A stretch of DNA of 62,876 nucleotides from Promethearchaeota archaeon (GCA_016839915.1 JAEOTH010000184.1:1-62876); one strand, 5' to 3'. Numbered from the stretch's first letter, positions 6,029 through 62,665 are shown. Translations and numbers: made by a program. Notes: a model not told the origin generated them from the sequence alone.

Positions 6029-7216
6029 TTAAAGCATAGAAGAAATCCCATACACACCAATCAATATTATAAAACAAATTATGATGGGTTTGATTAAGAT
6101 TCTAAAAACTTTTTTAAAGTCTGTGTTAAAGTATTCAGTGCTATAGGAAACACAGGGATGAATTGGGGTAATTAGATACCCTAAAAAAATAGAAGTATAA
6201 ATAAAAATGAAATCTAAGATTGGCATGATAAAAACAGTATATTGCACAAGGTATATAGGGATTAAGATTGAGATTGGTAATTGAATACGTCCCGTTGCAA
6301 ATCCAAGAAAAAAGCCAATTAATATAAAAAGAAAAACTGATAAATCTAAACTGCCGATTTCTTCAGGAGCACCAGAAAGTACAAAAACCTCTAAAAACAT
6401 AAACATAGCGAATATTATGAAGGGATAACGCCATATTTTCATCTTTATCGATATATTCTTCACATTCGAGAATTTCATTTTTCCAAATCGTAAAGCAATC
6501 CAAATACTAAAAACAAGACCAACAAGAAGGAATATTTCTGGAACTTGAAGATTAAAGAATGTCCTTCCGATAAAATCAACAATCGGTGCTAATATAATTG
6601 GAAGCAAATTATGGAAGGCTCGTTTAAGATCTCTTTCTCCTTGCTCTGAAAAAGGAGAAACATCCTTAACCATTGTATAGTATCCCACTATCCACATTGT
6701 GGCGAAACAAGGCAATAGTGCTATTACAAGTATATAGAGATTAATATGAGTGAGGACACTCGCAACTATCAATGCTGAAGATAAAGGATAGATCAAGATT
6801 AATACATGCCGATACCAGACATTAATGGAAACTTTTTTGTTTGTATCTACTTCAGAGCCGATCTGATCCACAATAGGTGCCGACATTAGAGCTCCACCTG
6901 GTACCGGTAATAAACCAAAAAGAGCTGGCATTACCATGAGAGAAGCTTTTTTTGAAACTCGCATTTTTTGAATCATTTCCATCATCAATCCAGATTCTTC
7001 CATTATCCCTCCTAGAATAGGAATAAGAGCCATAATAATCATTAACAATAGAATAGATGTATCTGTTAGTACATTTATTAATGACTGTAAGATATCAGTC
7101 CCAGATAAGATCGCAAAACCTAGAGCTCCTAGAGTTAAAATTATACTCAATTCATATTTTGATAGTACGATAACAATACCTATAATGATGATAAAACTTA
7201 ACCAGGCTGGTAACAT
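6029..7216 (-). CDS. DUF401 family integral membrane permease
   Basis: A 395-residue polytopic membrane protein with roughly ten hydrophobic segments. The stretch LFGLLPVPGGALMSAPIVD near residue 100 is the hallmark of DUF401 proteins, which belong to the ion-transporter superfamily of anion permeases (relatives of GntP and citrate carriers). A second re-entrant-type segment near the C-terminus (YLITPIHPCVSYS) sits where the second half-repeat would be. The substrate is unknown, probably a small carboxylate. No metabolic partner is adjacent. Confidence 0.75.
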   Translation of the reverse strand: MLPAWLSFIIIIGIVIVLSKYELSIILTLGALGFAILSGTDILQSLINVLTDTSILLLMIIMALIPILGGIMEESGLMMEMIQKMRVSKKASLMVMPALFGLLPVPGGALMSAPIVDQIGSEVDTNKKVSINVWYRHVLILIYPLSSALIVASVLTHINLYILVIALLPCFATMWIVGYYTMVKDVSPFSEQGERDLKRAFHNLLPIILAPIVDFIGRTFFNLQVPEIFLLVGLVFSIWIALRFGKMKFSNVKNISIKMKIWRYPFIIFAMFMFLEVFVLSGAPEEIGSLDLSVFLFILIGFFLGFATGRIQLPISILIPIYLVQYTVFIMPILDFIFIYTSIFLGYLITPIHPCVSYSTEYFNTDFKKVFRILIKPIIICFIILIGVYGISSML

Positions 7217-7343
7217 TTCCTTGAAAGCGAATAGTGATTGATATTTTAATGAATTTATTTTTAAAAAAATATGTTATTATACGCGAAATACCTAGAACAT
7301 TCCGAGTCTTTTGGAAAAAAAAAAATTAAAAAAGAAAAAAAAT

Positions 7344-7580
7344 TTATTCAGGTTTTTTAAGTTTTGGTAGTTCCTTCCCTTTTATTTTGAAATAAGCCAA
7401 TGCTCCAATTCCTATGATACCGACAATTAATGAAATTATTCCGAAAGCAATAAACATAAAAACACTACTGTAAAACCCTAAGCCCAACGGAAGGAAGACT
7501 GCAATACCTACCCAGATCAAAATTATTCCTATCGGAATGAGAGCTATACAGCCTAATATAGCCTTGGTCATTTGTTCCAT
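7344..7580 (-). CDS. Small two-helix membrane protein
   Basis: A 78-residue protein with two long hydrophobic segments (about residues 6-30 and 38-62) rich in glycine and isoleucine, then a basic tail KIKGKELPKLKKP. It stands alone on the minus strand between the DUF401 permease gene and the response-regulator gene. No family is recognised. Confidence 0.55.
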   Translation of the reverse strand: MEQMTKAILGCIALIPIGIILIWVGIAVFLPLGLGFYSSVFMFIAFGIISLIVGIIGIGALAYFKIKGKELPKLKKPE

Positions 7581-7840
7581 TTATTTCTCAACCTCTTTTT
7601 TTAATCCACTTTCCTTTAGGTACTAATACCTTTTATTTTAATATTGGCATCTTCTCATATTTAAAAATTTTTAATCTAGCAACCCTATTACCCTAAATTT
7701 ACCAGTAAGTTTTAGAAATTGCCGGTTTTTTACAACAATACAAAAATATCATAATAATGACTCTTATGAGTCAATTTTACCTTTTTTTGTTGAAGAAATT
7801 TGCTTATTTAAAATTAGTAAAAATAAAAAAAAAAGGAAAT

Positions 7841-8680
7841 TTAGTATTGTTTTAAATATTTAAACAGGATATGTAAATCTGTTAGCTTATCAATAGGTTT
7901 AATAATAATATCATTTGCCCCTGTTTTAGTTAAAATCTCTTGCTTTTTATTTTTAGACACGACAGCAGATATTAAAATTATTGGAACGGAATTATACTCA
8001 CCGTTAGTTTTTATCATTTGGCAAAGTTTATCTCCATTGATTTTACTTGTTTTCAAATTTATGTCAACCAATATCACTTTAGGAGTCAATGTGTTTAATA
8101 AATACAAGCCCTCATCTGATGTTTCTACCGATTTAATATTTATTCCCTGTGTTTTGAAAAAAGTATCTATAGTTTTTCGTTCTAATTCATTATCTTCTAT
8201 ATACAAAATATCTACCTTTTTTACAAATCGTATTAATTTTGGTTTCTCAAAATGTTGCTTTACAGCATTTTCTAGTTCTTCAAAAGCTTTTTGAATATTA
8301 TTGATTGCTTCTAATAAAATTTCAGGCTCATTAAGTTGTTTTTCCAACATTAAAATTGAGAGTTTAAGAGGAGAGAGTTTTTGCTTTAATTCTTCATGAA
8401 GTCCATTGCCCACTTCATATTTATCAATAGCTTTTCTGATAAAATCATCGTATTTTATTTCATCATACTCATTTAGACTATTTAATGAATTCTTCTGGAA
8501 TACTGCATTTATATAATCAATACTGTTATTTACGAAGGTTCTTATGAGGTTGGCTTGGTTTTTAATTTTAAATTCTTCCATGAATTCTTTTAATTTAGCG
8601 TCAAGATAAGGCTCTACATAGGAATACCATTTTATATCCTTCTTAGCTTTTTTCTGATCTCTACTATTACTTTGGTTAAT
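7841..8680 (-). CDS. Response regulator with N-terminal helical domain, apparent ATT start
   Basis: The C-terminal 120 residues are a receiver domain. It shows the acidic pair in LYIEDNE, the phospho-acceptor Asp in ILVDINL, the switch Ser in LISAVV and the conserved Lys in IIIKPID. The N-terminal half is helical and may contact the partner kinase. There is no output DNA-binding domain. The first in-frame ATG is at 8581, but the frame stays open and protein-like for 35 further codons (including KDIKWYSYVEPYLD) with no ATG, GTG or TTG. An ATT at 8680 lies exactly six bases after a GTGA motif, so I place the start there (279 residues). It is 34 bases after the kinase gene. Confidence 0.8.
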   Translation of the reverse strand: MNQSNSRDQKKAKKDIKWYSYVEPYLDAKLKEFMEEFKIKNQANLIRTFVNNSIDYINAVFQKNSLNSLNEYDEIKYDDFIRKAIDKYEVGNGLHEELKQKLSPLKLSILMLEKQLNEPEILLEAINNIQKAFEELENAVKQHFEKPKLIRFVKKVDILYIEDNELERKTIDTFFKTQGINIKSVETSDEGLYLLNTLTPKVILVDINLKTSKINGDKLCQMIKTNGEYNSVPIILISAVVSKNKKQEILTKTGANDIIIKPIDKLTDLHILFKYLKQY

Positions 8681-8714
8681 TACATTTCACCCTTTTATTA
8701 TTTTTAATCTCTTT

Positions 8715-9500
8715 TTAATATTCTTTAACAAGTTGATAATGTAATGTTAATGGCTTTGCTTTAGGAATTAATAATAAGAATTTACTTCCTTTAGAAGAAT
8801 CTCCCTTTACTCGATCTTCTATCCACATCCTTCCCTCACATAAATTAATTAATTTAGCAGCGAGCGAGAGTCCAAGACCCATACCTTTAGAATTTTCACT
8901 TTTTTTATGTCTTTCCTGAAGGATTTCTTTTTTTCTTGCATCATCTATACCAATCCCATTGTCATTAAACTCTAATTTCATGAATTGTCTATTGAATTCG
9001 CTTACTTCTGATATTGAAACTTGAATATGGACTATTTCGTTTTTATTATATACAATTGAGTTCATCAGAATATTCTCAAAGACATCAAGTAATAATTCGT
9101 TAGCGATTACGTAGATTCTCTCTGTACTCGAGCTAAAGTCAATGTCAATAACTCTGTTTGGAAAATTAACCTGAACAAATTGAATGGCACTTTTTAAATT
9201 TTCAATAAGATCTATAGGTTCTAATGGCATTTCAGATTCCTCTGATTCAGATAGGGCTCTAATATTTCTTACTAATTTCTTTCCTCGATTTATTTGTTCT
9301 TCAATCAACTTAAAATATTCCAAAATTTCTTCTCTATTAATTCCATCTTTTAATAACATTCCACATAGCTCTAAGGAATTGCTAATTGTATGAAATAGAT
9401 TTGAAATATCATGGGTAAAAAGCCCTTTAAAACATTTAGTTCTAATATAGGCTTTATGATACATATCCTCCATTGTTAAATCCTGCATGACATTATCCAC
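8715..9500 (-). CDS. Cytosolic sensor-less histidine kinase
   Basis: A 261-residue kinase without membrane segments or a recognisable sensor domain. The phospho-acceptor His is in FTHDISNLFH near residue 29. The ATPase domain shows the N-box (FENILMNSIVYNKN), the G1 box DNGIGID and the G2 box KGMGLGLSLAAKLI, then WIEDR. It autophosphorylates and passes phosphate to a receiver, most likely the response regulator encoded just downstream. A short acidic segment ESEESEMPLEP links the dimerisation and ATPase parts. Because the input domain is missing, the signal probably arrives through a partner protein. Confidence 0.88.
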   Translation of the reverse strand: MDNVMQDLTMEDMYHKAYIRTKCFKGLFTHDISNLFHTISNSLELCGMLLKDGINREEILEYFKLIEEQINRGKKLVRNIRALSESEESEMPLEPIDLIENLKSAIQFVQVNFPNRVIDIDFSSSTERIYVIANELLLDVFENILMNSIVYNKNEIVHIQVSISEVSEFNRQFMKLEFNDNGIGIDDARKKEILQERHKKSENSKGMGLGLSLAAKLINLCEGRMWIEDRVKGDSSKGSKFLLLIPKAKPLTLHYQLVKEY

Positions 9501-9626
9501 TTTTTTTGGTTATTTATATTAAATAAGAATAAACTTCGTTAAATAGTTTCTACTACGTAACTTTACACAAAGTTCGAACTTTACCAGAAGCAAGAAAACT
9601 AATATCAAATAATTCTTAATTTTTAA

Positions 9627-10748
9627 CTACACTCTTTCAATTAGAAGATAACTTTTAACTTCTTTATGAAAGAAATAGTAAATGAAAATAACTGATGAGA
9701 AGTATATAATAACAGTTATAACATTCAAAATATCGCTTACTAAGAAATATGCTAAAATTGAAAAGAAAAAATATAAACAAACAATTAAAACAAGAGATAA
9801 AATTGGGGTTATAAAATCTAATTGTGTCAAGTTTTTGATCACACCTAACAGATATCGACTTATTAGGAATATTAATGCTAATAATAAAGGAAGAATCATT
9901 TCGAAAAGATTAATGGTTATATAAAAAATACCATATCCATAAAAGCTTAAGAAAAGACTAATGAAATAAAGTAGAGAAGTGCAAACTGTTATTCCTAATA
10001 ACGGATAATATAGCTCTTTCCTTTCCACTGTTAGTTCTTTTATTAAATTGCTCTTTTTCTTTGTTTTTATTTTTTCAGGATTATTAATTTCTTTATTTGA
10101 AATAGAATAGCGTATATAATGTAATGAAATAATAAATTCTGGTAAAATTTTTCGAAGGACGTAAAGAATTATTATGAATGAAATTAGTGTTATAAGATAG
10201 TACGACGAATCGTGGATTATATTCGTGGGCATTCCGTTATTTATAGATGCTAACATCAATACCATTCGGAACATATGTGAAAAATATGTTGATAATATTA
10301 TTATTATAATGATTTTGGTTTTCCTCCAAATTATATTCACATCTGGTTTAGGATTATGCGAAGAAGGCGTCGCAAGAATTATACCAATAAAAATACTAAT
10401 CATATGAGCACCATAACATACTGGTAACACTCTACCAGAGAAAGAAGGTTTTGGTAAGTATATGGTTATTAGATCAGGATTGATATCTACTATTGTTTCA
10501 ATATTGAAGAATAAGTCTAATACATAACTTACCTCTTTAATAAACATCGCAGTTATCCAACTATTAAAACTCATAGTAAGAAATAAAAAGATTAGACTGC
10601 CTAATATAGGCATACTAAAAGAGAAAAACATTAAAGAATGTTTAGAAAAAGTATATTTTATACCTGACCATTGAAGTTCTAACCTTTTGGGTAAAATTTC
10701 ATTATCGTTGTTATCAGTTTGAATGTTTTTTACGAGCTTTTCACCCAA
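9627..10748 (-). CDS. Archaeosortase/exosortase family protein
   Basis: A 373-residue polytopic membrane protein with about eight hydrophobic segments. The catalytic triad of the exosortase/archaeosortase fold is visible: Cys near residue 111 in LPVCYGAHMISIF, Arg near 161 in FSHMFRMVLML and His near 179 in NIIHDSSYY. These enzymes cleave a C-terminal tripartite tail and are thought to join surface proteins to a lipid or glycan. After the catalytic core there is an extra membrane region of about 150 residues separated by a basic loop, longer than a minimal archaeosortase. Candidate substrates with IPGY or IPGF tails are encoded in this window. It has a TTG start. Confidence 0.82.
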   Translation of the reverse strand: MGEKLVKNIQTDNNDNEILPKRLELQWSGIKYTFSKHSLMFFSFSMPILGSLIFLFLTMSFNSWITAMFIKEVSYVLDLFFNIETIVDINPDLITIYLPKPSFSGRVLPVCYGAHMISIFIGIILATPSSHNPKPDVNIIWRKTKIIIIIILSTYFSHMFRMVLMLASINNGMPTNIIHDSSYYLITLISFIIILYVLRKILPEFIISLHYIRYSISNKEINNPEKIKTKKKSNLIKELTVERKELYYPLLGITVCTSLLYFISLFLSFYGYGIFYITINLFEMILPLLLALIFLISRYLLGVIKNLTQLDFITPILSLVLIVCLYFFFSILAYFLVSDILNVITVIIYFSSVIFIYYFFHKEVKSYLLIERV

Positions 10749-10925
10749 TAAAATGGTTTAAAATCAATAAATATTCTAATTTAAACTTAGATTTATTTAT
10801 TAACTTCAATATTTTTTCAATCAATGAATTCAACTTGATTTTTAAGTTAATTGTAATTAAGATGAAGTTTATTTTTTTTTCTAAATTTGTCTTAATTGTT
10901 TTCCAAACTTAAATGTTGATTAAAA

Positions 10926-11489
10926 ATGAAAACTGATGAAAATAAGATAAAAGACGTTTTACGGCTCCTTCAAGAGGGATATAACAAGAGAGATCCACAA
11001 TATTTAGATACTTTCATGAAATTATACTCTTCAAAAGATTCTTCCTTGATAATTGGTACCGAACAAGGGGGAGTGATTAGAGGTTTTGAGAGTGCAAAAG
11101 AGCTTTTTCTGAATGATTGGAAAGATTGGGGACAGGTCAAGTATGATATAAATACCTCTGATATTCAAGTTAATGGAGATATGGCTTGGGTCTTTATGTT
11201 TGCTGAACTTAAATTGAAATTTACAGCGAAATATCTAAATAAAATTGCTCTCAAAATGATCAAAACTACTTCAGAAAATGAAAAAACTTCAGAGAATGCA
11301 AAAATTGTGGATATCTTAAGAATTAGTGCCTTAAACATCATTGAAAAATTAAAAAGCGAAATGTTTAACTGTCCTTTAAGAGTTACAGTAGTTCTTACGA
11401 AAGAAAAAGAGAACTGGTTCATTAATCATATGCATTTCTCCCATCCAATCGGTTTGTTTAATTCTTTTCCTAGGGAAAAAGAAATCTAA
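10926..11489 (+). CDS. NTF2/SnoaL-like domain protein
   Basis: A 187-residue soluble protein resembling SnoaL-like NTF2-fold proteins. The pattern is an N-terminal helix with LRLLQEGYNKRDPQYLDTFMKLYS, then strands with IIGTEQGGVIRGFESAKELFLNDWKDW, then a curved sheet with DMAWVFMFAEL and a final WFINHMHFSHP strand. About 40 extra helical residues are inserted between the last strands (the TTSENEKTSENAK region). NTF2-like proteins range from enzymes to ligand-binding domains, so no reaction can be assigned. It is divergent from the archaeosortase gene. Confidence 0.65.
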   Translation: MKTDENKIKDVLRLLQEGYNKRDPQYLDTFMKLYSSKDSSLIIGTEQGGVIRGFESAKELFLNDWKDWGQVKYDINTSDIQVNGDMAWVFMFAELKLKFTAKYLNKIALKMIKTTSENEKTSENAKIVDILRISALNIIEKLKSEMFNCPLRVTVVLTKEKENWFINHMHFSHPIGLFNSFPREKEI

Positions 11490-45163: not shown

Positions 45164-48100
45164 TTATTTTTCAGATTTCTTCTTATCATCTGTTAGTCCT
45201 CTTTCTTCCAAAAGAGAATCTAAATCTATTTTTTCTTTCTCCTTTTCCTTTGGTTCTTCTTTCTTTTTGACTGGCTTTTTCACTGGCTGAGGTTTTTTAA
45301 GTTCAGCTACAGGAACATATTTGGCTCTACGTGGTCTCTTAGGGGCGGGTTCCTCAATTGGAGTTTCTATACGTTTTTTGGCTTTTCTACCGTAGATGAC
45401 TGCAATAATTAAAGCTAATACAATCATTGATATTACAATCAACATAAAATTTTGAACAATGTATTCAAAAATAGGAACTTCAAAAGCTATATACGTACCT
45501 TCTTCTGAGACAACTATACTTTCGTTTGTAATTATGTTTTGTGCTGTTATTGAAATTGATAGTATTATGCTTTTAACATTTTTAACTGAAACCTCAAGAA
45601 TTATTATACTGCTCTCTCCTGATGGGAACCAACTTAAAAGGATATGATCAATCTGGACAATTGAATATTCTTGATTTCGATTAAGTTCTATTGAGATATT
45701 AGTAATTCTTAAATTTGAATCTCCAAAATTGAATAATCTAATATTGAATGATGTCGTTCTCTGGCGTAAAATCAGAATTTCATTTGGAATAATTGATATT
45801 GAGAGATTATTGCTCTGATGAATAATATCAACCGTAACATTTTTTGAAACTCCATTAATAATATCACCATTCCAAAATAAACGAAGTAATAAATCTCCTT
45901 TAAAATTAATATTTTGAGTATCAATCAAAAATGTTGTAAACCCATTTAAATCCGTAAAATCTGAATCAATGTCAATCCACATACCTGAATCATAGTACTG
46001 ACAAGATATATTTCTATCCGATAGTTTATCTCCAAATTCAGTTGTTAAAATAGAACTAATATTAAAGATTTGCCCTTTTATGGGATTGCGGGGGAATACA
46101 GTAATGTTTGTAAACTTACTGTTGAGAGCTAAAGAGAATTCATCTGTAAATTGGTAATAGTTACTCACATAATTTTGATCAATAATATTAACAAGAAACA
46201 GAGTTTTGTTAGGAGAATATATACACTCATCTCTATTGAATTCGTATAAAATTGTCCTACTAGATGTTTCTTCTGCAACCCTTAAACCAAGAATATTACC
46301 TTCGAAATCAGTATTTGTTTCATTACTAAGTAATAAGATATCCGGATTTTCAAATACACCTACATTAACATCATCAACAAAAATAGTTATTAATGTTTTA
46401 GCACCACCTAATCTTATAGGCGCATTAACACCTTCCCATCCACTTGTAGCACTAATTAAATCGGGAATTGTTAGATCTATCTCAAATTCATTAGTATCAT
46501 CTGGATGACCAGAGAAATTTAAAATGCTACTGGTTGATGTCGTTTCTGCTATAATCCACTCATCATTCATAAATGACACAAGTTTTACATTAATCTTTAC
46601 ACTAAGAGGAATAAATGGATGTAAGTTTTGAAATGTAGTTTTAATATTAACAATTTCATTAGGATTTAAAATTTCTTCACTCTGTTTAAATGAAGTCAAC
46701 AACACTGGTAGTTCTTGATCTCCTATTACATAAGAATATTCTGCATTTATGTCAGTATAATCAATAGGATAATAATTAGGGAGAGATAATCCTGTTGTTT
46801 CATTAATTGAAGCAATCAACATTGTATAATTATTAAAAACCTTATTCTTGATTTCCCCATCAAGGACGTTACTTTTTAAGCTTGGATAATACTCACAATT
46901 ATATAATTCCAAATCATATGTATCGATGTAAATGATTATTTTCTTGCAACCAATCGCAGATCCATTAAACCAAAAGAATCCTAAATGGTACTCACCAAAA
47001 GTGGTAAGAACATCTGTGATTTCTAAGATGGTTTGATTATTAAAATCATAAATCAAAGATGAATCTTTAATAATTCCAAGAGAAGAATAGAGTTCTGCTG
47101 TTGGAAGCTTAGTACCATTTGGATAAAAGAGTGTAGCATTTGCATTCCCCCCCTTAGGCGCGTTTAAGTTCTGATCTTGTATACCGACACTGACAGACAT
47201 GTTATCTTCATACATAAAACCATTAGATTCCCACAAAATTCCTTTATAATTAATATAACTGTGTGTATGATGGATAAAATTATGAGATGTTAAATTGAGA
47301 ATATAAAAACCAGTTTGTGTTGCAAGATCACTCGGAATAATTATTTTATCTTTAGTCTGATCTTCAATTAAAGCAGTTTGTTTTGTTCCAGAAGGAAGAA
47401 TCTCTTGGCTATTTGGATGTGTTACATTATTAGCAACAAAATAATCAGGGAAGACGTACCAAAACTCAAAAAAATCCCATTTGTCGAAAGATGTATCATC
47501 TTTATCAAAATAATAATTAAATAACCATTCTGGATCGTTATTATAAGTTGCTTGATATGTAGTCGAGGCACTTTCAATCCAGTAAGCATTAACAGAATAT
47601 GATGATACATTGAATTTAAAACCGTTTATAATTAATTTATTCCATCTCAGATCCACTTGAAAAACATTAGTAATTTCTTCTTCAATCACAGTTAAAAAAC
47701 TATGGTTCCATTGACCTAAACCCCATGTTAAGTATGAGCTTTCATTAAAGGGGGCTACATCAATCTCTAAATTTTCTAATGGTAAATCTTGAATTCTTAG
47801 AGTTTGGTTGTTGTTCACAAAGAAATCTGATGGCATATAACCGCGTGTAACATTTAACTTAAAAGAACTTGCATCTAATTGACCAGATAAATATGGTAGA
47901 GTTGTAGCTTCTATTGTTTGTTTCGCATTTCTCCATTTATCTCCATCATCTCGAGTTGTTTTTAATTGATGCTCAGTTCGCCCATCGCCACCAAAATCAT
48001 ACCAAGGAAGTGTTACCAAACTATACACTTCTTTAGGATTATCAGATTTGATTACAATGAAGTAATTAAAAAGATCTAAATTAATGGTATTACCTATGTT

Positions 48101-49258
48101 AAATTCAAAATAGTTAAGACTATCTCCAGTATAAGATACTAAACGAGTATCAATCATTTCATTATCTTCTGGACCTAAACTAATACCTCTTAGATTATCA
48201 TCTGTTCTCACGACTGTTGCATTAGCTCTATATAAAGTAATATTCAATTGTGAGATTCCCGCTTCTACTAAATCAAGTGTTCTTATCCATGCATAAAAAC
48301 CATTAACTGTAGATTTCTTACCTTTTAAATCAAACTCTAACGCCACATATTCTTGATCAGTTATCGGGAGATCAAAGGCATATAAGGATCGCATATCATA
48401 TTCAAATAATTCAGCATTAAAGGGATTATGATCATATCTCTCAAAAATAAATTGAATTTCACACACATTTGATTGGTTAATGAAATTTAAATTTTCATTA
48501 ATTATTCTTCTTATTAAATTTTGACGATCTAAGCTACTATTTATGGGAAGAACAGAAATAATTTCTTTCCATGACGATTGATCGTTAATCCTTACTGTCA
48601 AGTTTGCATCAGTATAAATTCTAAATACTAATGAAGAAATCATTCCTAAAATGCTAGACCGATTGAATGCAACATTACCATAAGTCACTCCTAAATCATA
48701 GACTGAGCCTGTGAAATCGGCTGAAATAGTAAAATTTAACACACCTTCACTGGCAAGTACTTCAATATACGATCCATTATTATTATCTGTTAAACTGCCA
48801 AAATTCCAAGGTTCATTTGGAGTACCATTAGTAAAAGTAATCCCAGAAGCACCCGCATCATAATCAAAAGAGATAAAATCCTCCGCATAAAGAGCGTTAT
48901 TATCTTCAAGAATGTAATCTGTCGTAAAATTGTTTTGAAACTCAAACTCAAAATTCCCACGAGAAAGATACATATTTTCAGTTGTAAGTGCAGGAATTTC
49001 AAAATAATCTTCATTATCTAGCTTATTTTCAGATTGATTATTGACATAAACCCTAACATTTTGATTGTTACCAGAACCTGAAATAATATCATTCAAATCA
49101 GATGTTAGTGGAAATTCATCTAATACAACTTCATTATTAGATTTATTATCGTAATATACATTAAAATTATTTAAAATCTGTACATTAGATAAAAAAACTG
49201 TAATAACTAAAAGTGCAATAAAGAATATTCGTTTTATCTCTTTTTTTCGTCGAATCAA
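45164..49258 (-). CDS. Giant membrane-anchored surface protein
   Basis: A 1364-residue protein with an N-terminal hydrophobic signal (RIFFIALLVITVFLS) after a basic start. A very long outer region is rich in Asn, aromatic and beta-type residues with many N-glycosylation sequons and a few Ig-like segments near the end (FNISSILTTEFGDKLSDRN). One membrane helix follows near residue 1285. An inner tail of about 60 residues is basic then highly charged (PVKKPVKKKEEPKEKEKEK). The tail is unlike archaeosortase tails and would reach the cytosol. Function unknown; it may be an S-layer-like or adhesion protein. TTG start. Confidence 0.75.
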   Translation of the reverse strand: MIRRKKEIKRIFFIALLVITVFLSNVQILNNFNVYYDNKSNNEVVLDEFPLTSDLNDIISGSGNNQNVRVYVNNQSENKLDNEDYFEIPALTTENMYLSRGNFEFEFQNNFTTDYILEDNNALYAEDFISFDYDAGASGITFTNGTPNEPWNFGSLTDNNNGSYIEVLASEGVLNFTISADFTGSVYDLGVTYGNVAFNRSSILGMISSLVFRIYTDANLTVRINDQSSWKEIISVLPINSSLDRQNLIRRIINENLNFINQSNVCEIQFIFERYDHNPFNAELFEYDMRSLYAFDLPITDQEYVALEFDLKGKKSTVNGFYAWIRTLDLVEAGISQLNITLYRANATVVRTDDNLRGISLGPEDNEMIDTRLVSYTGDSLNYFEFNIGNTINLDLFNYFIVIKSDNPKEVYSLVTLPWYDFGGDGRTEHQLKTTRDDGDKWRNAKQTIEATTLPYLSGQLDASSFKLNVTRGYMPSDFFVNNNQTLRIQDLPLENLEIDVAPFNESSYLTWGLGQWNHSFLTVIEEEITNVFQVDLRWNKLIINGFKFNVSSYSVNAYWIESASTTYQATYNNDPEWLFNYYFDKDDTSFDKWDFFEFWYVFPDYFVANNVTHPNSQEILPSGTKQTALIEDQTKDKIIIPSDLATQTGFYILNLTSHNFIHHTHSYINYKGILWESNGFMYEDNMSVSVGIQDQNLNAPKGGNANATLFYPNGTKLPTAELYSSLGIIKDSSLIYDFNNQTILEITDVLTTFGEYHLGFFWFNGSAIGCKKIIIYIDTYDLELYNCEYYPSLKSNVLDGEIKNKVFNNYTMLIASINETTGLSLPNYYPIDYTDINAEYSYVIGDQELPVLLTSFKQSEEILNPNEIVNIKTTFQNLHPFIPLSVKINVKLVSFMNDEWIIAETTSTSSILNFSGHPDDTNEFEIDLTIPDLISATSGWEGVNAPIRLGGAKTLITIFVDDVNVGVFENPDILLLSNETNTDFEGNILGLRVAEETSSRTILYEFNRDECIYSPNKTLFLVNIIDQNYVSNYYQFTDEFSLALNSKFTNITVFPRNPIKGQIFNISSILTTEFGDKLSDRNISCQYYDSGMWIDIDSDFTDLNGFTTFLIDTQNINFKGDLLLRLFWNGDIINGVSKNVTVDIIHQSNNLSISIIPNEILILRQRTTSFNIRLFNFGDSNLRITNISIELNRNQEYSIVQIDHILLSWFPSGESSIIILEVSVKNVKSIILSISITAQNIITNESIVVSEEGTYIAFEVPIFEYIVQNFMLIVISMIVLALIIAVIYGRKAKKRIETPIEEPAPKRPRRAKYVPVAELKKPQPVKKPVKKKEEPKEKEKEKIDLDSLLEERGLTDDKKKSEK

Positions 49259-50865: not shown

Positions 50866-52047
50866 TTGCCTGAACAAAAAATTGAAGATACTGTTCTCCT
50901 TTTAGACGCTTCTAGGTCGATGTTGAGAAAAGATTTTAAACCAAGTAGGTTGGAGGTAGAATTACAGACCGCTAAGAATTTCATTCAATCAAAATTATCT
51001 ATTGATATGAAAGATCGAATCTCAATAATTTCTTTTGGGAATATAACAAAAAAATTGATAAATTTTGCATTTGAAGATGGTAAATTAATTGAATCATTAA
51101 AAAAAATTCAAATTTCAGGTCGAGGATTTTTACATGAAGGGATTGCGTTTGCATTGCAAATTCTCGTTGAAGAAATGCGAAAGTTAGGTGGAAAAACTGC
51201 TCGTATATTTATAATTACTGATAATAAATTTAGTAATGAAAATAGCAAATTACAAAAGATAATTGATATAGCAAAGGGCTTAGGTGTATTTATTGATGCT
51301 TTACAAATGGGAGGTAAACAAGATCACGGAGAACTCTCTCTAAAAAGAATAACTCAGTCTACAGGAGGAGATTTTGGATATTTTAATAATTCTAAATCAA
51401 TTATTAATGCGGGAAATGAGTTTGCTATAAAAAAGGAAGTTAAACAAACCGTCGATTACTTCTCTCCTGATAAAGATGATAAAATTGCACCTCTGATTAG
51501 TGAGATTGCTCTTCCATTAAGAAGACCTTCCTTATTAGATCTAAGGCTAATGATAAAAGGAACAGGAAAAAGTCAAGAGAAATGTCAAATTTGCCATTCT
51601 GTTAAAGCAGCTGTTACTGGATCTGATTTCTTTAGTGAGGGGCGGTATTGTCCTAGTTGTGATCGAGCAATGCATTTATCTTGTGCGGCAATGTGGGCTA
51701 AGAAAACGGAATATAAAGAAAATGTGTTCCGATGCCCATTTTGTTTTTTCTTATTAGAATTACCAAGAGCAGCATTAAATTTAGTTAAAGATAAAATAGA
51801 AGAACTTCCAGAAATAGAGATTGCTGAAGACAATGAGATTTTAGAAACTAAAGTAACATTAGTCCCTGATGATGATATTGATCAAATTGATGTATCATGT
51901 TCATTTTGTCATAGTATTTTTTTAGGTGATTTTAAGGTTTATAAATGTGAAAATTGTGGTTCATATTACCATGAACCTTGCTTTCAGAAGATGTATAAGG
52001 AACTGAATGCCTGTAGAAATTGTGGTGCAAAAATATTGGTACATTAA
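50866..52047 (+). CDS. VWA-domain protein with two C4HC3 zinc modules
   Basis: A 393-residue soluble protein. Residues 5-200 are a von Willebrand A domain with the metal-ion site DASRS near residue 14 and Thr/Asp positions in GFLHEGI and IITDNKF. Residues 245-310 contain CQIC, CPSC, HLSC and CPFC; residues 350-393 contain CSFC, CENC, HEPC and CRNC. Both have the Cys4-His-Cys3 order of PHD-like modules, with four residues between the second Cys pair and the His. VWA followed by zinc modules is the plan of eukaryotic TFIIH p44/Ssl1, which this resembles in outline only. TTG start. Confidence 0.72.
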   Translation: MPEQKIEDTVLLLDASRSMLRKDFKPSRLEVELQTAKNFIQSKLSIDMKDRISIISFGNITKKLINFAFEDGKLIESLKKIQISGRGFLHEGIAFALQILVEEMRKLGGKTARIFIITDNKFSNENSKLQKIIDIAKGLGVFIDALQMGGKQDHGELSLKRITQSTGGDFGYFNNSKSIINAGNEFAIKKEVKQTVDYFSPDKDDKIAPLISEIALPLRRPSLLDLRLMIKGTGKSQEKCQICHSVKAAVTGSDFFSEGRYCPSCDRAMHLSCAAMWAKKTEYKENVFRCPFCFFLLELPRAALNLVKDKIEELPEIEIAEDNEILETKVTLVPDDDIDQIDVSCSFCHSIFLGDFKVYKCENCGSYYHEPCFQKMYKELNACRNCGAKILVH

Positions 52048-57431: not shown

Positions 57432-58166
57432 TTATAAATTCTTCAATAGAATTCTTTCAAAAATATCAATTTCTTGAAAATATTTTTCTTTATATTCGAT
57501 TTCCCAATCTAAGGTTGCAATACTCTTCCGAAATGACTCTAAATTAATTGAACTTCTAAAATAAATAAGTAACAAAGACCTTAATCCATTGCGTTTCAAA
57601 ATTTTATAGTTCTCTAAATGGTTCAATGAATCTAACAATTGATGATAATCGGGAAGGAATTTATCAAATATATTTGCTGAAATTGCTACTATTTCAGAAT
57701 CTTTTGAATTCAATGCCAGTAAGATGTTCCTCCAAACTAAAAGTGGCATTTTTTCTAAATCTAGTAATGTTTTAAGAGCATTAATTCTAATTGGAAGATA
57801 CTCATCATTTATAGCATACCCCACTAACTGAACAATTTCTTCTCTAATTATTACCTTTTTCGAGATTTTTCGAATTGCTTGGATTATCTCGTCTCTGACC
57901 CATCTGTCTGATGAATAATAAGTTTTGGATAAAAAATCCAAATATTTCTGGTCTATATTGGATACTTTTGCAATTTCTCCTATCAAAAAGACAAGATTTA
58001 TTTTAACTTTTTCAAATATTTGGAGATCTAAATTGTCGATAAAATAATCTAAAATCGTAAAATATTCAAGCTTAGGGGTTGTACTTAATTTTATTAAAAA
58101 ATCATTTATAAGATCAGGATTTTTTGATTTTTTGATTTCATCAAATTCTTCGCTAAAGAACACCAT
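57432..58166 (-). CDS. HEAT-repeat-like protein
   Basis: A 244-residue all-helical protein with HEAT-like pairs (RWVRDEIIQAIRKIS; LPIRINALKTLLDLE; SEIVAISANIFDKFLP). It is probably a curved protein-binding scaffold. The frame extends to a TTG at 58223, which would overlap the RelA/SLOG gene by 32 bases; the ATG at 58166 avoids the overlap and fits better, leaving a 25-base gap. It is the last gene of the TIR/RelA-SLOG unit, a position typical of an accessory factor. Confidence 0.7.
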   Translation of the reverse strand: MVFFSEEFDEIKKSKNPDLINDFLIKLSTTPKLEYFTILDYFIDNLDLQIFEKVKINLVFLIGEIAKVSNIDQKYLDFLSKTYYSSDRWVRDEIIQAIRKISKKVIIREEIVQLVGYAINDEYLPIRINALKTLLDLEKMPLLVWRNILLALNSKDSEIVAISANIFDKFLPDYHQLLDSLNHLENYKILKRNGLRSLLLIYFRSSINLESFRKSIATLDWEIEYKEKYFQEIDIFERILLKNL

Positions 58167-58191
58167 AATTATAATTTTCAATGAATTATTT

Positions 58192-60201
58192 TTATTTGAT
58201 AAGGAAGTCCTTAATTGTTTCAACTTGATTTTCTACATTGATTAAATATTCATTTTGCCATGAAGGATCTTGAAGTAATTTCAAACCGGATCCAGTAATC
58301 TTTTCTATTATACCAACATATACTCCAAAAATCAATGCTAGACGATATTCAAACGCAGAGATCTTTCCTCCTCCAATCCCAAGGAGTTTAATATTACTTA
58401 TAGGGATTTCATTTAATACTATATCTGTCCAATATTGAAGTGCTTCTAAAAAACTGAAACCGGTTCCATTTGTTTGGTGTATGTTTGAATACCTTACATC
58501 AATTTTAACATGGTTAGGAAAATCTTTTGGAATATACCCTATAGTTTTTATTGAATGAGGATAGGATTTTTGAATATCACCAACAAGGTCACAAACCCCT
58601 GCAACTGTGCTTCCAGATATAATCATTCCTTTATAAAATCTAGAAGCATCTAACAAGTTCTTCTGTAAATCATCTCCTAACTCTTCCTTCCTCATCTTCG
58701 TACTTCCCGTAATTATTACCAATGGCAAGCTTAAATTTCTTTCTTTTACCCCATATTCTCTTTCCAAACGAACTTTCGCATTTTTATTATTAAATCGAAT
58801 AGCTAAACCGAGCAATAATAATTGTCTTACTATGTTTATTCCTTCTAGTTCATTATCTATCATACTAAGACTATCTAAATCATCAAGATGAGTAGAGATC
58901 ATCCATCCTGCCGTAGAGAACTTTATTCCAAGTAAATAATTATTTAAACTCCCATTTACATCCTTAGAAAATAATTTAAATAAGCCATTATTGAGATATG
59001 CCCATGGGATGTTAATTCCAACTAATATTTGTTCTTCACTAATCTTAATGATGTTCTTGATAGCTGGTAATGAATAATCAATGATATCAATGTTTTTATT
59101 AAGAGCAATATTGGTAATAAAGTAATTTACTCCTGTATAAGTATCATCAGGATTAATATTATATGATTGGTTATAGTACTCGAGCGCCTTTTCAAGATTT
59201 AATTTCTTCCATGATCCCCCTAAACATGTCAATGCATCGGTATCTTCTGGATCTAATTTTATTGCTTCTTCCAAATATTTTTGTCCTTGTTGATATTCAG
59301 TGCCTGTAGGATTTTTACCATAATATTTATATAAAGCAAGACCGAGTTCTCTTAATACTGAAGGATCATTGTAATTGATAAACTCAGTTAGTAATTTTAT
59401 ATTAAGATCCCATTTTTCTACTGCTCTAGCTAATTTTACTATTCTTAATACCAATTGAAGTTCTTTTGATTTATCAGGAGCGTTTTCATAAACCAATAGT
59501 AAACTATTAATTTTATCATTTATTTCTTGAACAGTCATATATGCACCATAGTTTGCTTTATATATACTCAAAAAATCTAAGCTATTCTTAAATTCGTGAT
59601 CAGCATCTTCTAGAATTGCTGCAATTCGAAAGAATTGCCGTTTTATTTTATCTGGAATTTTAATACTTGGTTTATATAAATTATCATGCTGAATAACACT
59701 CCAACAATGCTGAAGTAGAGTTCTTATTTGAAGTTCCGCTTTAAGATGATAAATTTCATCAGGAACATCAAGATCTTGGAGATATATGGAATCTGGATTT
59801 ATTTGTACAATATAATGATGAGATAAATATCCAAATTGGTCTTTATCTAAAGTATTGAGTTTGTCCTCGCTATCTTCCCATTGAATTTTGAAATTCTCTT
59901 CTACTATTTGGCAACATTTCTCTACATCGTCTAAAGTTGGTAAAATAATCCGTCCACCGCATAGATCAGTTAAATCTTCAACAGGATTTAGACCATACAG
60001 CTCTGCTTTCCCAGGGCGTTGTATTTTTTCTGCATAACTCGTTACCGTTTTAGCACGAGTTTGAACTATGATTTCAAGAGAAATATTTTTCCCAATTTTT
60101 TTAAGAACCAATTCTAGTAATTCAGCATATTTAACAAAGTCTTTACGGCATTCTTTGTAAATATTAATTTCCCTTATAAACTCATCTTGATCTTTTTTCA
60201 T
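58192..60201 (-). CDS. RelA/SpoT nucleotidyltransferase - TPR - SLOG fusion
   Basis: A 669-residue protein. Residues 20-230 are a RelA/SpoT synthetase-fold domain with its key positions intact: DLCGGRI (Asp near 79), FGYLSHH near 124 and AELQIRTLLQHCW near 156. Residues 235-480 hold TPR-like helices (LDPEDTDALTCLGGSWKKLN). From about 490 there is a Rossmann-type SLOG/LOG-like domain: VIITGST, MIISGSTVAGVCDLVGD and the nucleotide-loop-like GIGGGKISAFEYRLALIFG near 610. SLOG domains bind NAD- or ADP-ribose-type signals in Thoeris and other systems. The synthetase half would make alarmone-like nucleotides or pyrophosphorylate a target. It is co-directional with TIR, 52 bases apart. Confidence 0.82.
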   Translation of the reverse strand: MKKDQDEFIREINIYKECRKDFVKYAELLELVLKKIGKNISLEIIVQTRAKTVTSYAEKIQRPGKAELYGLNPVEDLTDLCGGRIILPTLDDVEKCCQIVEENFKIQWEDSEDKLNTLDKDQFGYLSHHYIVQINPDSIYLQDLDVPDEIYHLKAELQIRTLLQHCWSVIQHDNLYKPSIKIPDKIKRQFFRIAAILEDADHEFKNSLDFLSIYKANYGAYMTVQEINDKINSLLLVYENAPDKSKELQLVLRIVKLARAVEKWDLNIKLLTEFINYNDPSVLRELGLALYKYYGKNPTGTEYQQGQKYLEEAIKLDPEDTDALTCLGGSWKKLNLEKALEYYNQSYNINPDDTYTGVNYFITNIALNKNIDIIDYSLPAIKNIIKISEEQILVGINIPWAYLNNGLFKLFSKDVNGSLNNYLLGIKFSTAGWMISTHLDDLDSLSMIDNELEGINIVRQLLLLGLAIRFNNKNAKVRLEREYGVKERNLSLPLVIITGSTKMRKEELGDDLQKNLLDASRFYKGMIISGSTVAGVCDLVGDIQKSYPHSIKTIGYIPKDFPNHVKIDVRYSNIHQTNGTGFSFLEALQYWTDIVLNEIPISNIKLLGIGGGKISAFEYRLALIFGVYVGIIEKITGSGLKLLQDPSWQNEYLINVENQVETIKDFLIK

Positions 60202-60253
60202 TGTAAATCAACTAATTTTTGATATTAAATTTAAATTTAGCAATCTATTTTAT

Positions 60254-62665
60254 TTAAACAGTTTCTTGTTCATGAAGAACGGGAGATATTACTTCTCTCA
60301 ATTTAGGATAAAACTCGGAATCAGACATGAGGTATTTCTTCATAGACTGGATATCAGCAATGTCAAACTCTAATTCACTAGGTAATTCCGTTTCTTTCAG
60401 GTAAACACCAAAAAATGCTTTATTTCTTTTCGATGCAAAGCTAATTTCTTTTCTTACATAATCTGAATCAACTATGTGAGGCGTGATGAATAATAAAAAT
60501 GCCTTGCATCGCTCTAAATTTTGAACGATTGATTTTTTCCAATTTTCACTAATGGGAATTCCTTCATCATACCAGATGTGTATATCCTTCTTATTAAGAT
60601 AATCTATTATTGGATAAACCTGAAGTTTGTCTGTGTGAGAATAACTGACGAAAATAAAAGGTTCATCACCTGCATATGCTTTAAATGGCATCTGAAATTT
60701 CTGTGGATCGGACAGGAAGCTCCCGACTATTAATTCCTCAAGAGAAGGATTTTCATTTATCGCAATAATCTTATTCTCATTAACATAATTTTCAAGGATT
60801 TTCATTATAGTAGGATCTTTGCTAAAAGCTTCACAGAAATGGGTTAATTTCTGTTGAGCGCTATAGGAGTGTCCTTGGAACATATAATAAACACAATAAG
60901 GATCTACTGCTGTAATGAGAATTGTATATCGCCCGAATTTCACTCGATCAAACGATTCGGAAAAAATTTGATCGCAAAATTCATTACATGAGGACAGAAA
61001 CTCACCAAAGTGGGTTTCATCAATAGTCATATCCGCAGTAAAGGGGCTGGACAACACCATATCTCCCTCTCTCGTCATAATAGAAAGGAGTATGGGTTGC
61101 TCTGCTTCTATTTTTGGAAGATCACCTACACGCTTTCTGAGCATTTTTACCACTTGATCGTTTAAACGAACTAATTCTATACGTTCTCTCATAGGCGCAT
61201 TTGATTCTTTTAATCTCTCCCACAAGCTCAACTCATTAAGTAATTTATCATGTTCCTCTGAAATACTCATAGCTAGCCTATTAAGGCCAAAATTTTCAGC
61301 AATTTGCTGTCCTTTAGCCATTAATCGCCTAGCTTTCTCCAGGTCAGATGATATTAAAGCTATTTTTGCCTGTAATAGATATGTTTCACATAGAATCCAA
61401 AATGATCGAGATTTTTTAGTAATTTCAAATAATCGTGTAATCAGAGATTCTAAATCATCTAATACTTCTACTTCATTAGTCATCTGAAATTCAATTATGA
61501 GTAGTTCACATAAGCTAAGTAGGGCTCTTTGATTGATTTCCCAAAAAACATCTTCACCTTCGAGGATTTGTCTTAAAATTTCTTCAGCTCTTCCTCGATT
61601 ACTGATTCGTGGACTCACTTTTAATAATAAAGCTTTATTATAAAGATACATCCAATTAGTAGATTTATCGTTTAATTGTTCATTTAATTGTTCTAATTGG
61701 TTAATATTTTGCTGTGCTTGCTCAAGATCACCCTTTTCAATTAAAATTTGAATTAAAAAATCATAAGAGTTAGCTACACGCCTCAAAGCACCAATTTCAT
61801 ATGATTGTGCTTGACTTTTTAATATACACTCTAAAGCATGATCTAATTCTCCATTCATTCTATAAGCGTCAGCCATATTATTAAGATTCGATGAGATCAG
61901 TCCTTTATGGTTAAGTTCTTTAGCTATTGCCAAGCTTTGCTCATAAAGGGTTAAACTTCGAGTAACCTCCCCTTTATTATGATAGAAAGTCGCTTTTTGA
62001 AGAAGCCCCACGGAAATAAAAAATTTATAATTAACTTCTTTGGCAACAGTTAAAACTCTCTCAGCATACTCTAAAGCATGATCAAATTCGCCTTTGTACA
62101 AACCAAGTACCCAAGCAATGGGGATAAGATTAAAACAAACTATACTATCATCACCAAGAGATTCTCCCATTGCTAGACTATGTTTAAAATACTTTAATGC
62201 TATTTCCACATCACCCTTAGGAGAAATTAAAGGATTTGAAATCATACCTTTTTGAAGAACTATTAGGGCTTCTCTTCGTGTCTTATTGATTACTAACTCA
62301 TCTGTTAGAGTTGCTAACAATTCTTCTGCTTGTTTAATTATCTTATTAACTGGTTTTAGATTAAAGCTTCGAGTTAAACCTATAACCATAAAAATTAAAG
62401 CATCAACAGATAAGATACTATTCTCTAAACCTAAACTCTCATTATATGTTTGTTCGGCAAATTTCACAACTTTTTTAAATAAACCTTGGTGTATTAAGAG
62501 ACTACACTTAGTAAGATGACAGGATACTATATCATGAAGCGAATTATTTCTCCTTTCTTCGAAATCATTTAATAATTGAAGAGATTCTTCATATTTCCCT
62601 TCTATAATAAATTGTCTTGCTTGAACTAATTCTTTAGGGTCTGAATGGGACATATTTTCAGCCAT
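60254..62665 (-). CDS. TPR - longin-like - TIR protein
   Basis: An 803-residue protein. Residues 10-460 are TPR-like repeats (ALEYAERVLTVAKEVN, SLTLYEQSLAIAKELN). Residues 520-650 carry a segment seen in other Asgard TPR proteins and compatible with a roadblock/longin fold (ILLSIMTREGDMVLSS then GRYTILITAVDPYCVYYMFQGHSY). Residues 667-803 are a TIR domain: FIFVSYSHTD, HIWYDEGIPIS and SDYVRKEISFA with the catalytic Glu near 740. TIR domains of this type cleave NAD or produce cyclic ADP-ribose signals. It is the first gene of the unit with RelA-SLOG and HEAT genes and lies next to a palindrome-bearing upstream region. Confidence 0.85.
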   Translation of the reverse strand: MAENMSHSDPKELVQARQFIIEGKYEESLQLLNDFEERRNNSLHDIVSCHLTKCSLLIHQGLFKKVVKFAEQTYNESLGLENSILSVDALIFMVIGLTRSFNLKPVNKIIKQAEELLATLTDELVINKTRREALIVLQKGMISNPLISPKGDVEIALKYFKHSLAMGESLGDDSIVCFNLIPIAWVLGLYKGEFDHALEYAERVLTVAKEVNYKFFISVGLLQKATFYHNKGEVTRSLTLYEQSLAIAKELNHKGLISSNLNNMADAYRMNGELDHALECILKSQAQSYEIGALRRVANSYDFLIQILIEKGDLEQAQQNINQLEQLNEQLNDKSTNWMYLYNKALLLKVSPRISNRGRAEEILRQILEGEDVFWEINQRALLSLCELLIIEFQMTNEVEVLDDLESLITRLFEITKKSRSFWILCETYLLQAKIALISSDLEKARRLMAKGQQIAENFGLNRLAMSISEEHDKLLNELSLWERLKESNAPMRERIELVRLNDQVVKMLRKRVGDLPKIEAEQPILLSIMTREGDMVLSSPFTADMTIDETHFGEFLSSCNEFCDQIFSESFDRVKFGRYTILITAVDPYCVYYMFQGHSYSAQQKLTHFCEAFSKDPTIMKILENYVNENKIIAINENPSLEELIVGSFLSDPQKFQMPFKAYAGDEPFIFVSYSHTDKLQVYPIIDYLNKKDIHIWYDEGIPISENWKKSIVQNLERCKAFLLFITPHIVDSDYVRKEISFASKRNKAFFGVYLKETELPSELEFDIADIQSMKKYLMSDSEFYPKLREVISPVLHEQETV

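Follow-up and report, generated by a model that had tools for sequence, protein, structure and literature searches.

A TIR gene beside a RelA/SpoT-TPR-SLOG fusion in an Asgard archaeon: a candidate Thoeris-like relay with an alarmone-synthetase output

The window analyzed here is a 62,876-nucleotide stretch of DNA from a Promethearchaeota archaeon, a Lokiarchaeon (GCA_016839915.1 JAEOTH010000184.1:1-62876). An earlier note on this DNA had described three open reading frames (ORFs) on the same strand near its far end, and ORF reading bore out their coordinates. The first ORF encodes a putative sensor and NAD-cleaving signal generator, the second a putative signal-gated effector, and the third a protein with weak HEAT likeness that proved to be a core chromosomal neighbor outside the system. 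The RelA-TPR-SLOG gene begins 52 bp past the stop of the TIR gene, downstream and on the same strand. Only 211 bp separate the start of the TIR gene from the contig end, where the view upstream of that gene stops. The features are as follows.

60254..62665, minus strand: TPR, longin-like, and TIR protein, 803 aa (ORF; TIR_2, 1.1e-15; TPR_12, 2.6e-15; model)
61211..62635, minus strand: TPR superhelix, residues ~11-485, with a fast-evolving N-terminal half (identity comparison; model)
60770..61108, minus strand: longin-like domain, residues ~520-632 (secondary structure of the model, moderate confidence)
60347..60655, minus strand: TIR domain, residues 671-773 (TIR_2, E=1.1e-15)
60446-60448, minus strand: Glu740 codon, catalytic position (alignment to SARM1/TIR-1)
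58192..60201, minus strand: RelA/SpoT, TPR-S, and SLOG fusion, 669 aa (ORF; Pfam; model)
59557..60201, minus strand: RelA/SpoT synthetase, residues 1-215 (RelA_SpoT, E=2.5e-15; fold search)
58747..59556, minus strand: TPR region, residues 216-485 (Pfam TPR-S at residues 264-361)
58195..58746, minus strand: SLOG of the TRPM-related LSDAT clade, residues 486-669 (profile matches of relatives; model fold)
57432..58223, minus strand: HEAT-like ORF, 263 aa, probable true start at 58166

The HEAT-like gene had been counted as part of the same operon-like unit, and here the earlier note does not hold: the ORF is real, yet it is a core chromosomal gene, present in 17 of the 19 genomes of the genus. 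A convergent AAA gene adjoins it wherever its neighborhood was read, the gene upstream of it differs among genomes (flavodoxin-like, TPR-longin, and others), and in none of the other genus genomes read does a RelA fusion adjoin it. The HEAT-like protein was thus ruled out as a third component. Its 32-bp overlap with the RelA fusion gene is probably an artifact, because most of its homologs begin at the equivalent of M20 of the listed ORF. Close relatives carry the TIR/RelA cassette in surroundings other than those of the window and the HEAT-like gene is core, so the cassette, judging from these gene neighborhoods, occupies a variable spot beside a core gene. The flavodoxin-like gene that lies upstream of the HEAT-like gene in many related genomes was not found in the window's genome, and no clean empty site was shown. 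Elsewhere in the window, positions 50866-52047 (plus strand) encode an Asgard protein of eukaryote-like layout, a VWA domain fused to RING/PHD-like zinc fingers, and positions 45164-49258 (minus strand) hold a 1364-aa ORF without a credible Pfam match.

The TIR protein combines a variable front half with a strongly conserved C-terminal domain. Among its close homologs, mean pairwise identity is 45% over residues 114-316 versus 87% over the TIR domain, and a fast-evolving N-terminal half is, at the level of sequence, the pattern expected of a sensor. The catalytic glutamate that had been proposed near residue 740 is E740, which aligns with the Glu of the 'DWVHKE' motif of SARM1/TIR-1 and is invariant in 12 TIR-protein homologs. 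Across nine divergent TIR partners of the fusion, the only invariant residues are F672 and E740 (window numbering). The TIR protein also drew weak matches to ThsB models in PADLOC (2e-5). In the structural model, the longin-like domain runs strand-strand-helix-three strands-two helices. The TPR-longin part (residues 1-652) has homologs in 130 of the 228 Asgard genomes, mostly without TIR, and the TIR domain appears to have been added onto a TPR-longin scaffold. Proteins of ~650 aa with TPRs and a longin-like domain, usually lacking TIR, thus make up a large Asgard family.

The window's synthetase domain retains R49, K51, S55, K59, D79, GYLS-HHY, E156-QIRT, and QHDNLYK, and motif reading thereby agrees with the earlier statement that the key RelA/SpoT motifs are kept in this copy. 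The best matches in a fold search were RelQ/SAS1 and RelP structures, with CapRel at rank 29. HD hydrolase, TGS, and ACT domains were all absent in a Pfam scan of the fusion; with its synthetase fold and catalytic motifs, the protein therefore classifies as a small alarmone synthetase and lacks the HD hydrolase, synthetase, TGS, and ACT layout of a long RSH. A search of the host genome (94% complete) turned up no second RelA/SpoT domain. The domain is less well preserved in some relatives. Members of a sister clade (L038-L042) no longer have the GYxS/H motif but retain D79 and E156 and, where the flank is readable, the TIR neighbor; the synthetase chemistry of these proteins may be changed or dead. 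Residues 1-197 encoded at L036:7757-10411 (minus strand) look like a second, degenerate RelA copy ahead of the intact one, and the neighboring fusion at L036:11362-13881 (minus strand) is interrupted by a stop codon that separates its RelA part from its TPR-SLOG part. At G117:C17:61200-61733 (L016), a RelA fragment with four in-frame stops represents a decaying copy of the fusion.

RelA domains classically act in the stringent response, and that role raises the reading that the fusion is a stress or nutrient regulator making alarmones under metabolic stress, with no part in immunity. The surroundings fit such a reading, in that six window gene products scanned with PADLOC gave weak ThsB and candidate matches and no further defense gene was recognized among them. 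Against it stand the single-domain build of the synthetase without HD hydrolase, TGS, or ACT, the lack of a further RelA/SpoT domain in the genome, and the fast evolution of the sensor half of the TIR protein. The distribution described below, patchy (14 of 228 Asgard genomes) and with recurring TIR, DUF4062, Nudix, and SLATT neighbors, weighs the same way, and we consider a stress regulator very unlikely.

The C-terminal two-thirds of the fusion carries the predicted sensor. TPR-S (Tetratricopeptide Repeats-Sensor, PF20308) matched at 31.2 bits, above its cutoff of 27.6. AlphaFold2, run on a 22-sequence family alignment, gave a mean pLDDT of 89 for the RelA fusion and a confident alpha/beta Rossmann-type domain at residues 494-632. 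The window's SLOG gave no Pfam match in the whole-protein scan; scanned alone, the segment matched LSDAT_prok (SLOG in TRPM, prokaryote) at E=0.14. At E<=1, LSDAT_prok was matched by the SLOG segments of 12 of 13 family members, the window's included (best, 6.6e-9), and the curated cutoff of LSDAT (PF18171) was exceeded in L038 and L044, so that the class of the window's SLOG is assigned through relatives that are 37-48% identical to it over this domain. ThsA-type SLOG families were absent among the matches of the 13 segments. The window's conserved stretches read VIITGS, IISGST, and GGGKISAFEY, those of the family VIIxGS, IISGGT, and GGGxISAFEYRLA, and Glu618 is invariant. Profile matches and the structural model together identify the C-terminal domain as a SLOG of the TRPM-related clade, not of the ThsA type. 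The earlier note was thus right to call a SLOG domain, for which a Rossmann-type fold is predicted, and wrong to assume the ThsA type, and with a TRPM/LSDAT-type domain the ligand is therefore not transferable from Thoeris. A fold search of the full models returned mostly RelA and TPR structures, so the SLOG and TIR pockets lay outside its reach. Separately, a 190-aa C-terminal extension in L038-L041 was considered as a homolog of the TIR protein's longin-like domain and rejected (hhalign probability 0.5%, not significant).

Of 228 Asgard genomes, 14 carry the RelA-TPR-SLOG fusion, as do 4 of 392 sampled genomes of Planctomycetota, the one bacterial phylum sampled; the fusion's earlier framing as an Asgard form is accordingly too narrow. 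Matches on viral and plasmid sequences covered the RelA domain alone, none the full fusion. A TIR_2 gene lies within ~6 kb of the fusion in 12 of 17 scored genomes versus 0.21 expected (P about 2e-20), or in 8 of 13 with the closest clade collapsed (P about 5e-13); these P values are rough, the chance model being one of uniform TIR gene placement and TIR genes being clustered in some genomes (G116, G161, and G286). TIR_2 genes are otherwise sparse, mostly 1-8 per genome. At all five of the closest loci, a TIR homolog stands directly upstream of the RelA fusion on the same strand, 48-64 bp apart, and in L031 and L034 a tandem pair of TIR homologs does so.

More distant loci keep the TIR domain in very different company. 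The neighbors are NosD beta-helix-TIR proteins in L042 (876 aa), L038 (1689 aa), and L039 (1900 aa) and a PCI/ArnB-like-TIR protein in L041. In L036, the fusion neighbors a four-TIR array and a further TIR protein, and in L037 a DUF4062-AAA-TPR protein, past which lies a TIR gene. At planctomycete locus L148, a membrane (TM)-TIR protein (6455-8203) is directly upstream of the fusion (8064-10997), with more TIR genes around. No TIR gene was found near the fusion at L035, L146, or L147, and at L043 and L040 contig ends cut the neighborhood short. The variety of partner architectures is, at the sequence level, support for the linkage that is independent of the chance statistics. The linkage proposed from the window alone thus recurs across genomes, and the TIR gene and the RelA-TPR-SLOG gene very probably form a two-gene functional unit. 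As an observation in its own right, the Lokiarchaeia proteins with NosD repeats and a C-terminal TIR (L039:832-6534, L038:474-5543, and L042:2622-5252, all plus strand) resemble surface receptors with an intracellular TIR.

Such a unit need not use a diffusible messenger. The TIR protein and the RelA-TPR-SLOG protein are both rich in TPRs, and in the closest loci their genes adjoin on the same strand with 48-64 bp between them, as might be expected if they bound each other through the TPRs in a two-headed abortive-infection toxin whose SLOG senses the level of NAD, ADP-ribose, or a like metabolite. However, NosD-TIR and TM-TIR partners without TPRs keep both the pairing and the catalytic Glu, for which a small molecule is the better fit, and we judge a direct complex unlikely.

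Closely related TIR proteins are found without RelA-SLOG too. In G122 (L060:6201-11696), two TPR-longin-TIR paralogs flank a SLATT_1/DUF4231 2TM protein, with no RelA fusion there; the SLATT protein likely serves TIR proteins of this kind as an alternative effector, and its place where the RelA fusion would stand looks like effector exchange. TIR homologs without the fusion could also be read in the reverse order, with RelA-TPR-SLOG as the sensor, an alarmone-like nucleotide as its product, and the TIR protein as the activated, NAD-depleting killer. RelA chemistry is messenger synthesis, and TIR domains elsewhere deplete NAD directly as effectors (Cat1, PMC12162218). This order nevertheless seems improbable, as the receptor-like variable modules sit on the TIR side, the RelA fusion is constant with its SLOG, TPR-S, and RyR domains, and Pfam scans showed no CARF, SAVED, or STING-type alarmone sensor in the TIR partners. 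With variability concentrated in the TIR partners and the nucleotide-binding folds fixed in the RelA fusion, we place TIR before RelA.

Several neighboring and fused domains share an ADP-ribose theme. Each of the four planctomycete fusions has a RyR domain at its C-terminal end (41-64 bits; cutoff, 27.4). The fusion at L056, in planctomycete G228, is flanked by a Nudix gene on one side and a DUF4062 fragment (24.4 bits; cutoff, 24.7) on the other, and DUF4062 lies beside a RelA fusion in G116 as well; the window's genome has no DUF4062. Published work describes DUF4062 as an NADase resembling TIR (PMC13174449) and reports that phage proteins with RyR domains break down or sequester cADPR signals (PMC13232231). 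The joint occurrence of LSDAT, TPR-S, RyR fusions, adjacent Nudix, and DUF4062 points to a messenger of the ADP-ribose type.

The explanation that we favor, if modestly, is a Thoeris-like immune relay of two genes with an alarmone-synthetase output. The variable N-terminal part of the TIR protein would detect infection or damage, using sensor modules that differ among loci (TPRs in the window, a cell-surface beta-helix or STAND/DUF4062 in others). Its TIR domain would then cleave NAD and release an ADP-ribose-type nucleotide, which would bind the SLOG, and possibly the TPR-S, of the RelA fusion and relieve inhibition of the synthetase. Transfer of pyrophosphate to nucleotides or tRNA would stop growth or translation in the manner of abortive infection, and in planctomycetes the fused RyR domain would reinforce the sensor. 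RelA-type toxins are known to block translation in phage defense (PMC9712102, PMC11559606). Taken step by step, the system quite likely acts in defense, the synthetase output is probably toxic, and action of an NAD-derived signal through SLOG is reasonably probable, these judgments being correlated. More tentatively, and at somewhat short of an even chance, Asgard archaea and planctomycetes may share a cross-domain class of TIR immunity, in which a messenger from an exchangeable receptor-TIR or DUF4062 protein activates RelA/SpoT through a TRPM-like SLOG, with RyR added in bacteria, giving an immune alarmone synthetase to archaea that have no other RelA/SpoT.

The closest known system is Thoeris (ThsB TIR plus SLOG-bearing ThsA; PMC11204291, PMC9503650), in which, as here, a TIR gene adjoins a gene joining a toxic-type enzyme to a sensor of the SLOG superfamily; a relay through an NAD-derived nucleotide is likewise predicted for the window. 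A ThsB-like TIR with a catalytic Glu is present (TIR_2, 1.1e-15; E740 invariant). In contrast, the effector here is a RelA/SpoT synthetase instead of Sir2 or another described ThsA effector (Sir2-SLOG, macro-TM, or caspase-like); Pfam found no Sir2, macro, or caspase domain, and PADLOC gave no ThsA match for the RelA fusion. The SLOG belongs to the LSDAT/TRPM clade and not to that of ThsA, a TPR-S is inserted and a RyR is added in bacteria, and large TPR-longin or surface-receptor-like proteins serve as TIR partners. By effector type and SLOG clade the system falls outside Thoeris as defined, but it probably works in a similar way. Swarozyc, a DUF4062 NADase, finds a parallel in G116, where DUF4062 stands next to a RelA fusion, and in planctomycete G228, where a DUF4062 fragment does. 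The described action of Swarozyc is NAD depletion in its own right (PMC13174449), however, and DUF4062 is absent from the window's genome. CapRel/toxSAS proteins share a small-type RelA/SpoT synthetase with a C-terminal regulatory region and without a separate hydrolase. CapRel is activated on infection and triggered directly by a phage protein (PMC9712102), whereas here TPR-S and SLOG make up the fused region, whose predicted ligand is a nucleotide made by the partner TIR. This C-terminal part takes the place of the antitoxin-like zinc-finger region that accompanies toxSYNTH in CapRel, and PADLOC returned no match to the CapRel model, only the candidate PDC-S33 over the RelA part.

Both of the computationally defined prokaryotic sensor families, TPR-S (PF20308) and LSDAT (PF18171), match RelA fusions, and Burroughs and Aravind (2020) reportedly predicted that the TPR scaffold recognizes NAD-derived signals. 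We found no description in the literature of a TIR signal passing to a RelA/SpoT output via a TRPM-like SLOG, which may still have been listed in earlier computational surveys, and the main text of a published Asgard defense survey does not mention Thoeris, RelA, or SLOG. The component parts are known; the wiring from TIR signal to RelA/SpoT through a TRPM-like SLOG is the new element relative to the literature found. If it is correct, a nucleotide or tRNA pyrophosphokinase joins the outputs triggered by TIR-made signals, and archaeal RelA/SpoT gains a use beyond the stringent response. The prokaryotic TRPM-like SLOG would then be placed in an NAD-signal pathway beside TIR, RyR, and Nudix modules. 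Animal TRPM2 likewise carries a SLOG (LSDAT) in an ADP-ribose-signaling protein, and we saw a weak profile match to a TRPM2-like channel (E=1.1). The output of TRPM2 is an ion channel, however, and that predicted here is a nucleotide pyrophosphokinase; if the proposed wiring holds, the origin of animal TRPM2/RyR-type ADP-ribose sensing could be tested directly on small soluble proteins of archaea related to eukaryotes.
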